DNA of 64,000 nucleotides from an uncultured Chthonomonas sp. (GTDB taxonomy: Bacteria > Armatimonadota > Chthonomonadetes > Chthonomonadales > Chthonomonadaceae): positions 62,001 to 126,000 of the forward strand of contig CAIONQ010000076.1 in the NCBI GenBank assembly GCA_903859705.1, read 5' to 3'. Below, piece after piece: positions 41,012 to 44,667 of the stretch. The translations under genes and the position numbers were made by a program. Position 1 is the first letter of the stretch; each line of letters starts with the position of its first letter. The notes beneath the pieces were generated by a model. It ran no database searches. It was not told the DNA's origin and worked only from the letters and a program-made list of their open reading frames with translations.

Positions 41012-41030
41012 TAACAATATGGTTAACAAT
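41011..41030 (+). repeat. Direct repeat TTAACAAT flanking the ArsR start codon
   Basis: TTAACAAT occurs at 41011-41018 and 41023-41030, 12 bp apart, overlapping the -10 end and the first codons. It could be the operator for autoregulation by the ArsR protein, or chance in AT-rich DNA. Confidence 0.35.
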
Positions 41031-41399
41031 AGTGGTGCGGAACTATCTGCAGTGTTCTCTGCACTCGCCGACCCAACGCGGCGAGCTATCCTGGACAATC
41101 TCAGGGTGAGCCAGGCGCGCGTTATCGATGTAGCGCGTCCATTTGGCATGTCTATACCGGCAATATCCCGCCATCTTAAACTTCTTGAGCAGGCCGGCTT
41201 AATAGAAAAAATTCCGGAAGGGCGTGAAACCCTCTGTAGAATCAAGCCAGGAACACCTGCGATGCGCCTTGCAAGCAGCTGGATTCAGACGCAAACTCAA
41301 TTTTGGAACGACAGGCTGGATAGCCTTGAAATATTTCTTGCGTCCAATGAGCTCGTTGAAACGGAGGAAGAAGCTAATGAACAGCAATCCAATGAGTAG
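41019..41399 (+). CDS. ArsR family winged-helix transcriptional repressor
   Basis: 126 aa. The winged helix covers VFSALADPTRRAILDNLR, VIDVARPFGMSIPAISRHLKLLEQAGLI and the wing KIPEGRETLCRI. No Cys-rich metal site is present, so it belongs to the group paired with AHSA1/SRPBCC genes, often sensing something other than metals. The C-terminal helix contains WIQTQTQFWNDRLDSLEIFL. The gene overlaps the next one by 23 nt, the standard ArsR-AHSA1 arrangement. Confidence 0.9.
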   Translation: MVNNSGAELSAVFSALADPTRRAILDNLRVSQARVIDVARPFGMSIPAISRHLKLLEQAGLIEKIPEGRETLCRIKPGTPAMRLASSWIQTQTQFWNDRLDSLEIFLASNELVETEEEANEQQSNE

Positions 41400-41862
41400 C
41401 ATGGATTTGACCGTTGAAGGAGAAGTGCTGGTAATAACTCGGCATCTGCATGCGCCCGTGCAGCGAGTGTACGATGCGTGGACAAAGGCAGACCAACTGG
41501 CTCGTTGGTTTGCACCCAACCGGAGATGGAAAAGCATAACTGCTGAAACAGACGTACGCCCCGGTGGAAAGTACCGTATCGATATGTACCACCAGGATGG
41601 TGATGTGTATACTCTTATCGGCAAATACATCGAAGTGTTGCCGTGCCGTAGGCTGCAGTTTAGTTTTAACTGGCTGCAGGGCATGAGTGGGCAGTACGAA
41701 AGTATTGTAACGCTCGACTTTGCGGGTTACGCAGATGAAACCGAACTGCGAATAAAGCATGTAAACCTGACTGCTGTTGAGCTTGCGGAAACTCGCAAAG
41801 GCTGGGCTGGGTGCCTGGATATGCTTGAAACCTTGATGGTTACCAACGAGTCTCCATTTTAA
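41377..41862 (+). CDS. AHSA1/SRPBCC domain protein
   Basis: 161 aa. The ATG at 41377 follows GGAGGAAG by 6 nt and lies inside the ArsR gene; the frame is open further upstream, but that part is the ArsR coding sequence. The Aha1 C-terminal-like fold appears in VLVITRHLHAPVQRVYDAWTK, LARWFAPN, VRPGGKYRIDM and the C-terminal RKGWAGCLDMLETL. It probably binds a small hydrophobic ligand, perhaps the effector of the cotranscribed repressor. A DinB gene follows. Confidence 0.88.
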   Translation: MNSNPMSSMDLTVEGEVLVITRHLHAPVQRVYDAWTKADQLARWFAPNRRWKSITAETDVRPGGKYRIDMYHQDGDVYTLIGKYIEVLPCRRLQFSFNWLQGMSGQYESIVTLDFAGYADETELRIKHVNLTAVELAETRKGWAGCLDMLETLMVTNESPF

Positions 41863-41947
41863 GTCCTGCGTGTGCCCTGTCGCATACCCATTGGGCTTAA
41901 ATCTGTGTGTGGTGTGTGTTAAATACAAAAAGCGTGGAGGTTTGCCA

Positions 41948-42424
41948 ATGTCAGAGGTGACGGAACAGATCAAGTCTGAGTACACAAGGAATGAGAAAAA
42001 ACTCATATCCCTGCTCAATGCAACGCCTGCAGATAAGCTGGAGTGGTCTCCATCACCTTCAGCGCGAACCGTAATTGAGCTTGGTGCCCACTGTGCCATG
42101 GGTACCACTGGAATAACAGGATTGCTCAAAGGTGAGCCGATGCGGTTTGAAAATACCGCTGAACTGGATGCCTCGCTTCGCCAGATGGAGAAGCAGTTCA
42201 AGAGCCTGGATGTAGTACTTGGGATGGTTAAGCAATCTGGTGAAGAGTACTTTGCTTTTCTGGATTCGCTGGATGCAGATCAGATCCATGCAATCGTCAA
42301 TACTCCAATGGGCGCGATGCCGCTTTCTGTTGCCGCAACATTCCCCTGCGAGCACATGAAGTGCCATGTGGCGCAGATCGAGTACGTTCAGACTATCTGG
42401 GGCGATCACGAGTGGAGAAGCTGA
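41948..42424 (+). CDS. DinB-like four-helix metal-binding protein
   Basis: 158 aa from ATG 41948, with GGAGG 7 nt upstream. Four-helix bundle with His in ELGAHCAMGTTG and FPCEHMKCHVAQIEYV, which match the three metal ligands of the DinB/YfiT superfamily. Members are thiol-dependent transferases or hydrolases, or damage-inducible proteins. It is third in the ArsR-AHSA1 operon (85-nt gap), a combination also seen in other bacteria. Confidence 0.82.
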   Translation: MSEVTEQIKSEYTRNEKKLISLLNATPADKLEWSPSPSARTVIELGAHCAMGTTGITGLLKGEPMRFENTAELDASLRQMEKQFKSLDVVLGMVKQSGEEYFAFLDSLDADQIHAIVNTPMGAMPLSVAATFPCEHMKCHVAQIEYVQTIWGDHEWRS

Positions 42425-42519: not shown

Positions 42520-43482
42520 TCAATCTACACTCTCGAATGCCACCACAGCTGCGGCATACACCTCACGCACGGGTGCACCGGTAGCAAGTGCGGCCGCCTT
42601 TACGTCGCTATACTCCGGCGAGGCTGCAATAACCCTGCCACGGTATGTTCCTACCTTCACCTTAATTGCACCAAAGGGAGTTTCAACGGTTTGCCAGCTG
42701 CGGGTAACGGTTATTCTTTCATGTCTGGCAAATCGGACACCAAAGCTACCTGTTTCAGTAAATAAAACCTCGGCCAGCTTGCCCCGATTTTTAGGCACAG
42801 TAATCACCGTTACCTTTATAGCCGGGCGTTGCTTCTTCATGATGATTGGCGTCAGTGAAACATCCAGAGCCCCGGCAGCAAACAGGCGCTCTAATAGCAA
42901 CTCGTAAACTTCTGGTGAAACGTCGTCTAAGTTCGTTTCTATCACGTCTACTGTCCGAGGAGTCGTGTCAGTAGAAACCGGTGATCCCCCCTCAGAGTGG
43001 TCGGTTGGTTCATCTTGGATAATGCCGCAGGCATGGCTTAACAGCGGCAACAATGTCTCGAGGCCATCTCGCACTCCACCAACAGAACCTGGCAGGTTAA
43101 TTATTAACGTAGAGCCTGCAATTCCACATACCCCACGGGAAAGCACGGCGCGCTCAAACTTTTGATAGCCTTTCCATCGCAAAAGTTCGGCCAGGCCTGG
43201 TGCCTCACGCTCCAACACCATTTTTGTGGCCTCTGGCGTCACATCCCGCGGCGAAAACCCCGTTCCGCCCGTGGTAACAATCAGGGCAATACCCGCATCT
43301 ACCGCAGTCTGTAGGGCCGAAGCAATCTCGGTAGCATCGTCCGGTACTATTTCCGGGCCTCTCACCTGCCATCCAGCCTGCTCAAGCCCCGCACGCAGAG
43401 TTGGGCCAGATATATCTTCGCGTTCGCCGCTGGTACAGCTATCACTAACAGTAATCACATGCGCAGTTTGAACTGAATTCAC
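42520..43482 (-). CDS. MogA/MoaB domain fused to LarC C-terminal domain
   Basis: 320 aa. A GTG at 43482 has GAGGGGG 5 nt upstream and starts exactly at the domain (VNSVQTAHVITVSDSCTSG); the frame is open 59 codons further but without homology. Residues 1-155 are a molybdopterin adenylyltransferase-type domain: TGGTGFSPRDVTPEAT (71-86) and INLPGSVGGVRD. After a short Ser/Thr/Pro linker, residues 178-320 match the C-terminal half of LarC, the nickel-inserting enzyme of nickel-pincer cofactor synthesis (ETNLDDVSPEVYELL, AGALDVSLTPIIMKKQRP). No LarA, LarB, LarE, LarC N-half or other moa/moe genes are in the window. A metal-cofactor insertion role is inferred; the actual metal is open. Confidence 0.82.
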   Translation of the reverse strand: MNSVQTAHVITVSDSCTSGEREDISGPTLRAGLEQAGWQVRGPEIVPDDATEIASALQTAVDAGIALIVTTGGTGFSPRDVTPEATKMVLEREAPGLAELLRWKGYQKFERAVLSRGVCGIAGSTLIINLPGSVGGVRDGLETLLPLLSHACGIIQDEPTDHSEGGSPVSTDTTPRTVDVIETNLDDVSPEVYELLLERLFAAGALDVSLTPIIMKKQRPAIKVTVITVPKNRGKLAEVLFTETGSFGVRFARHERITVTRSWQTVETPFGAIKVKVGTYRGRVIAASPEYSDVKAAALATGAPVREVYAAAVVAFESVD

Positions 43483-43605
43483 AACAGCCCCCTCAATAAT
43501 ACGGTAAACTTTGGAATGGATTCGGCAGCGACCGTTGGCCTTCCTTCGAAGATCGCTGCTGCACATAGATTTGCCTTCGGTTAGATACGGAGAACTCCCA
43601 CAAAA

Positions 43606-44667
43606 ATGCGTTGGCTGCTCGCGATGCTTTTGTTTGTACCAGTCAGCCTGGGGCTGCATCTGTCACATGCTCCCGAAGTGTGGGTGTTCGTTACCTCTGC
43701 ACTCGGCATTGTGCCACTCGCCGGATATATGGGTACCGCTACTGAAGAGTTAGCGAAGCGCTTTGGCCCGGGAATTGGTGGTTTGCTGAATGCTACATTT
43801 GGTAATGCTACAGAACTTATTATTAGTATTATTGCCATACGGGCCGGGCAAATTGAGGTTGTAAAGGCCTCGCTCATAGGTTCAATTATCGGTAATGTGC
43901 TTCTGGTGCTTGGCCTTTCAGTTCTGCTGGGTGGCCTAAAACACAAAATACAAGTCTTTAACAAAGATGTTGCGCAGAGCCATTCTGCAATGCTCGGTGT
44001 TGCTGTCATCTCCCTGCTGGTGCCAGCTCTATTCGTAAGTGCAAGCCATATCAGTGGTGCGCAGGGCGAATCACGTATACAATCGCTCAGTACTGGCGTA
44101 TCTGTTGTGCTGATGGTGCTGTACTTTGGCAGCCTGGTATTTTCGCTGCGCACCCATGAATCCCTGTTCCGCAACAGTGAAGATTCGGATGCTGATCCGC
44201 CTCTGTGGAAAAAGAGCAGGGCATTTGCAGTGCTTGTTGCTTGCACACTCGCGATTTCGCTGGAGAGCGACCTCCTGGTGGGCTCCATCGACCCTGTTAT
44301 CGAACAGTGGCACATCAATAAGGTGTTCCTCGGGATCATCCTCATACCGCTTATCGGCAATGCCGCGGAACACTCAACGGCCGTGATGATGGCTCTTAAG
44401 AATAAGATGGATATATCGCTGAACATCGCTATTTCGTCCAGTACGCAAATTGCAATGTTCGCAGCTCCGCTCATCATCTTCCTGAGCCCGATGCTCGGGC
44501 ATCCGGTATCGATTCTTTTCAACACCTTCGAGCTTGCAGCCGTTAGCGCTGCTGCGGCGATCGCCGTTCTAATCTCAATGGACGGCAAAAGTCACTGGCT
44601 CGAAGGTGCCCAATTACTGGCAACATATCTCATTGTTGCCCTCGCATTCTATTACATTGCGGGCTAA
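43606..44667 (+). CDS. Calcium/proton antiporter, CaCA superfamily (CAX)
   Basis: 353 aa with about 11 TM segments. The two inverted alpha repeats are clear: GGLLNATFGNATELIISI and IPLIGNAAEHSTAVMMAL, with the acidic residues that carry Ca2+/H+. An acidic loop (FRNSEDSDADPP) separates the halves, as in other CAX proteins. The ATG has only a distant GGAG (about 12 nt). The MogA-LarC gene is divergent, about 120 nt away; prenyl synthase follows by 39 nt. Confidence 0.9.
   Translation: MRWLLAMLLFVPVSLGLHLSHAPEVWVFVTSALGIVPLAGYMGTATEELAKRFGPGIGGLLNATFGNATELIISIIAIRAGQIEVVKASLIGSIIGNVLLVLGLSVLLGGLKHKIQVFNKDVAQSHSAMLGVAVISLLVPALFVSASHISGAQGESRIQSLSTGVSVVLMVLYFGSLVFSLRTHESLFRNSEDSDADPPLWKKSRAFAVLVACTLAISLESDLLVGSIDPVIEQWHINKVFLGIILIPLIGNAAEHSTAVMMALKNKMDISLNIAISSSTQIAMFAAPLIIFLSPMLGHPVSILFNTFELAAVSAAAAIAVLISMDGKSHWLEGAQLLATYLIVALAFYYIAG

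Follow-up and report, generated by a model that had tools for sequence, protein, structure and literature searches.

The closest described relatives of the protein analyzed here belong to two metal-cofactor pathways. In the synthesis of the molybdenum cofactor (Moco), MogA, which is a trimer, attaches AMP to molybdopterin, after which MoeA inserts molybdate and the AMP is removed (PMC9458074). Asp49 and Asp82 of the E. coli enzyme are required for its function (PMC9458074). In the synthesis of the nickel-pincer cofactor (NPN), LarC cytidinylylates P2TMN using CTP, and the phosphoanhydride is broken once nickel has been inserted (PMC11796402). We refer to the C-terminal domain of LarC as LarC2 and to the remainder as LarC1. 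Work on LarC from 2018 reportedly identified LarC2 as the CTP-binding part of the enzyme. LarC of L. plantarum is presumably encoded by two neighbouring frames, which are joined by a frameshift. The protein is listed under the two locus tags lp_0106 and lp_0107 (PMC8305020).

MogA/MoaB domains occur fused to other cofactor-maturation domains, i.e. to MoeA in Cnx1 and gephyrin and to MoaC in the MoaC-MoaB proteins (NCBIfam PRK03604). All of these proteins combine two steps of one pathway. In contrast, the protein described here joins MogA to LarC2 and hence two pathways, one for molybdenum and one for nickel. These pathways have the same final logic: the cofactor phosphate is activated with a nucleotide, the metal is inserted and the nucleotide is cut off. 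A first-pass annotation of this DNA had already drawn the analogy that MogA and LarC both handle dinucleotide-activated substrates and metal insertion, and the published chemistry agrees with it (PMC9458074, PMC11796402).

The fusion is encoded on the minus strand of the window, which is the whole stretch of 64,000 nucleotides that was analyzed. In the source genome (G000), a 6.2 Mb draft in 179 contigs, the window is part of contig C76. It contains the following features.

42520..43482, minus strand: mogA-larC2 fusion gene encoding 320 aa, with a GTG start codon and its stop codon at 42522-42520; kept in 17/17 genomes of the family
43489..43495, minus strand: putative ribosome-binding site GAGGGGG, recognized from the sequence
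43015..43470, minus strand: MogA (molybdopterin adenylyltransferase) domain, residues ~5-156; Pfam MoCF_biosynth; fold of 1di6, Cnx1G and gephyrin G with Z 22-28; contains Asp48 and Asp80
42955..43014, minus strand: flexible linker, residues ~157-176; pLDDT ~49 at residues 161-170; length varies across the family
42523..42954, minus strand: LarC2 domain (C-terminal domain of the nickel-pincer cyclometallase LarC), residues ~177-320; NF052512 nickel_LarC2; similar to 6bwo, 6bwq and 12bi; 28/28 conserved columns

The longest open frame spans 42520-43659; conservation starts only with the GTG codon at 43482, which follows GAGGGGG at a distance of 6 nt.

The first-pass annotation had placed a MogA and a LarC domain in one open reading frame at this position, and this is borne out by matches to Pfam, NCBIfam and the PDB as well as by a structural model. 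The protein matched Pfam MoCF_biosynth with an E-value of 1e-32 (113 bits vs a cut-off of 26.6) and NCBIfam nickel_LarC2 (NF052512) with 3.6e-42 (143 bits vs 50). In a PDB sequence search the same chain found MogA, Cnx1G and the G domain of gephyrin with E-values down to 1e-37, together with LarC/LarC2 (12bi, 6bwo) down to 4e-28. The match to Pfam Ni_insertion (E 1e-45) is confined to positions 239-375 of the 375 in the profile; hence the LarC1 part is absent from the fusion chain, which by itself does not make up a complete LarC cyclometallase. The earlier description of the second domain as the C-terminal half of LarC was therefore right about the part and wrong about its extent, since LarC2 is the C-terminal third. 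The MogA half passed the broad domain model TIGR00177 (120 vs 85) and scored below the NCBIfam equivalog cut-offs for MogA (105.7 vs 158 bits) and for proteobacterial MoaB (93.6 vs 222 bits). Its membership in the domain stands; these models assign no equivalog name to it.

An AlphaFold model, which was built with 55 relatives (mean pLDDT 93), predicts that both domains are ordered and that residues 164-171 form a disordered linker. With this linker and a pTM of 0.60, a fixed contact between the MogA and LarC2 domains is not predicted. Foldseek and VIA-align both matched the first domain to MogA, Cnx1G and gephyrin G, with Z-scores up to 27.7. Foldseek matched the second domain to LarC2 (6bwq/6bwo) at an E-value of 1e-16, although with a high rmsd of ~7 Å. 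MogA structures took up the VIA-align list; the assignment of the LarC2 fold therefore comes from Foldseek and from the sequence. A missing LarC fold after residue 175 had been named earlier as an argument against the fusion; according to the model a LarC2 fold does follow there.

The residues that are expected to matter are retained in both halves. Asp48 and Asp80 of the window protein align with Asp49 and Asp82 of E. coli MogA, the reference sequence of which was checked against 1di6. Both catalytic aspartates are kept in 16/17 members of the family including the window protein. The LarC2 half retains all 28 of the 28 positions that are conserved across a diverse set of 32 full-length LarC proteins. 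The fusion thus resembles E. coli MogA (1di6), mycobacterial Mog (4twg), Cnx1G and gephyrin G in fold (Z 22-28) and in the two catalytic aspartates; it differs from them by the C-terminal LarC2. Compared with LarC from L. plantarum and Moorella thermoacetica (12bi, 6bwo-6bwr), LarC2 of the fusion aligns over its full length with all conserved residues kept, and a matching LarC1 is encoded in the genome. Here, however, LarC1 and LarC2 reside on two unlinked genes and MogA lies N-terminal to LarC2.

The same architecture is present in all 17 genomes of Chthonomonadaceae (Armatimonadota) that were sampled; one of these is the closed Chthonomonas calidirosea genome (G003). Ten aligned members of the family are 44-59% identical to the window protein. 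The fusion was found in none of the 134 genomes from outside the family in the sample of relatives. The remaining families of the order have a full-length LarC of ~400 aa and, where a MogA was found, it is a separate gene. In a collection of 84,980 species genomes with 590 confirmed matches, the best 80 of these matches included only two complete fusions, both from Chthonomonadaceae. A Paenibacillus locus (L124), which the length of its match had suggested as a further fusion, turned out to have separate MogA and MoeA genes; another candidate (L106) is an ordinary LarC. In the literature searched, which covered few of the subscription journals, we found no mention of a MogA-LarC2 fusion. The architecture combines known enzymes in a variant that was not found in this literature.

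The gene content of the source genome was determined by family searches. They detected three genes with a MoCF_biosynth domain, namely CinA, MoeA and the fusion; the latter is consequently the only MogA of this genome. MoaC is located on C79, MoaA on C107 and MoeA on C149, and domains of molybdenum enzymes occur on C61/C133. Only two segments match Ni_insertion. One is the LarC2 of the fusion and the other a separate LarC1 of 269 aa on contig C179 (TIGR00299, 213 bits vs a cut-off of 90), which is flanked on either side by genes that we named hisS and mutY from their sequence. LarE and LarB adjoin each other on C103, and LarA is on C163. A second, divergent LarA homologue is present on contig C77 (C77:59478-60785). 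Its relative L079:1288-2586 matches NF052515, 'nickel pincer cofactor-dependent isomerase, group 22', with 485 bits. Homologues of this type occur in 16/17 genomes of the family, also in those without a classical LarA, and they are a likely main user of NPN here.

This survey, which the first-pass annotation had proposed as a check, thus found LarA (two homologues), LarB, LarE, LarC1, MoaA, MoaC and MoeA. It found neither a separate full-length LarC nor a separate MogA; the presence of both beside a misassembled fused copy had been considered damaging to the idea of a genuine fusion. The molybdenum and the nickel-pincer pathway are both represented by marker genes, which are scattered over the genome. 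Such scattering of functionally related genes is known from C. calidirosea (PMC4959169). Since both known pathways are present, the shared or new metal-cofactor route that had been suggested is not needed. The alternative suggestion of a stand-alone LarC2 activity is not supported either; a separate LarC1 occurs in this genome, together with LarB, LarE and LarA homologues, and 15/17 genomes of the family have such a gene. In these genomes LarC1 is found in open frames of 207-355 aa without LarC2 attached; it was not found in two of the draft genomes (G004 and G005). In C. calidirosea LarC1 is ~0.86 Mb away from the fusion.

In a concatenated tree of LarC1 and LarC2, which presumes a common history of the two parts, the split forms are one clade with a support of 100/99 beside full-length LarC. 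The neighbours of this clade are the full-length LarC from a genome of a different family in the phylum (L033) and those of the order. One clade of split forms is consistent with a single split, followed by the capture of LarC2 by MogA. The trees of the single domains did not bring the fusions together in a single group, and starred branches in the LarC2 tree force at least 2 changes; the resolution of these trees is too weak for confirming a single split or for dating the fusion. LarC was probably split once, in the ancestor of the Chthonomonadaceae, and LarC2 was then captured by MogA. L033 corresponds to G087, a closed 7.6 Mb genome, and its LarC, the nearest to split LarC in the concatenated tree, is a useful unsplit reference.

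C. calidirosea separates the two halves of the protein through the natural loss of one pathway. Its closed genome contains no matches to MoaA, MoaC, MoeA or the xanthine-dehydrogenase-type MoCoBD_2 domain; LarB, LarE, LarC1 and a LarA homologue are retained. Of the 17 members, only this one has lost Asp82 and Asp22, each of which is replaced by Ala. The mean identity of its MogA half to the other members is 43%, compared with 59% for its LarC2 half. This amounts to a difference (MogA minus LarC2) of -16 points and lies outside the range of the 16 remaining members, -2.8 to +9.2. The MogA branch of C. calidirosea has a length of 2.24 changes per site vs a median of 0.39. Its LarC2 has kept 28/28 conserved positions. 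In this species with missing Moco genes, only the MogA half has decayed. The decay of one half and the conservation of the other support the assignment of the halves to separate pathways; being one evolutionary event, this case serves as an illustration and not as statistics.

Taken together, the protein is very probably bifunctional: the MogA half would serve Moco synthesis, while LarC2 and LarC1, acting in trans, would serve the nickel-pincer cofactor. The arrangement would have arisen by gene rearrangement in the ancestor of the Chthonomonadaceae, in which LarC1 stayed a separate gene and the only MogA acquired LarC2 as an in-frame C-terminal extension behind a flexible linker. For this MogA half we expect the adenylylation of molybdopterin ahead of the insertion of molybdenum by MoeA. 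We infer this from its homology, its catalytic residues, its status as the sole copy and its decay after the loss of the pathway. LarC2 together with LarC1 would be a full cyclometallase, responsible for the CTP-dependent cytidinylylation of P2TMN and for nickel insertion; homology and the conservation of LarC2 where Moco genes are absent point to this activity. If LarC1 and LarC2 do meet in trans, this naturally split LarC is a useful system for dissecting the parts that bind CTP, nickel and P2TMN.

Other readings of the fusion were weighed against this one. An artefact of assembly or annotation might be suspected in a draft of 179 contigs, and the first-pass annotation had raised misassembly as a concern; the recurrence of the architecture in 16 further genomes, of which one is closed, refutes this reading, to which we give practically no credence. 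It is highly improbable that the MogA half was recruited to nickel-pincer synthesis, e.g. for nucleotidyl transfer to P2TMN, and lost its role in Moco synthesis. The physical fusion with LarC2 and the analogous chemistry would fit such a recruitment, but the genome retains MoaA, MoaC and MoeA and has no other MogA. Furthermore, C. calidirosea has the NPN genes and no Moco genes and yet a broken MogA active site, so that NPN synthesis seems independent of MogA in this species. The converse, in which LarC2 has turned to Moco, is even harder to credit. LarC does cytidinylylate a cofactor phosphate with CTP (PMC11796402), and the genome has domains of xanthine-dehydrogenase-type molybdenum enzymes, for which a CTP-dependent synthesis of molybdopterin cytosine dinucleotide could be imagined. 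However, NPN synthesis would then lose the only LarC2 of a genome in which LarB, LarE, LarC1 and LarA remain, and C. calidirosea, which lacks the Moco genes, has a fully conserved LarC2.

A further possibility adds to the bifunctional reading and does not replace it. The two halves could be functionally coupled, either because the two metal cofactors are co-ordinated by one oligomer or because the MogA trimer scaffolds LarC2 and LarC1. All sampled members retain the fusion, MogA is trimeric (PMC9458074), and C. calidirosea maintains a full-length decayed MogA in frame on LarC2, as a scaffold role predicts; the latter is the one hint of a structural role. On the other hand, the model, with its disordered linker and its pTM, predicts no fixed domain contact, and a dead domain may persist merely because in-frame deletions are rare. 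We therefore regard coupling as rather unlikely. The scaffold version, which we hold to be about equally doubtful, would have the MogA trimer carry LarC2 and recruit LarC1, so that both cofactors would undergo nucleotide activation, perhaps in a co-regulated manner, in one particle; the decayed MogA of C. calidirosea would then be a scaffold only.

As the first-pass annotation had stated, no lar or moa gene adjoins the fusion. Among its neighbours across the genomes of the family nothing is linked to molybdenum or nickel, and an operon logic was rejected; the neighbours are either a divergent Na/Ca exchanger or a HEAT-thioredoxin gene and an aminopeptidase. In the window a gene of the Na+/Ca2+ exchanger family (43606-44667) is divergent from the fusion, and homologues adjoin the fusion in G001, G008 and G010 (4 genomes in total). 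In C. calidirosea a gene with HEAT repeats and a thioredoxin-like (AhpC/TSA) domain (L200:4885-7106) runs in the same direction as the fusion and overlaps its open frame by 4 nt. Homologues adjoin the fusion in G002, G005, G009 and G012 (5 genomes with C. calidirosea), and co-transcription of the two genes is possible in that branch. On the other side of the fusion in the window, genes for an ArsR-type regulator, an AHSA1 protein and a DinB-like protein lie in a row on the plus strand (41019-42424), convergent with the fusion gene.
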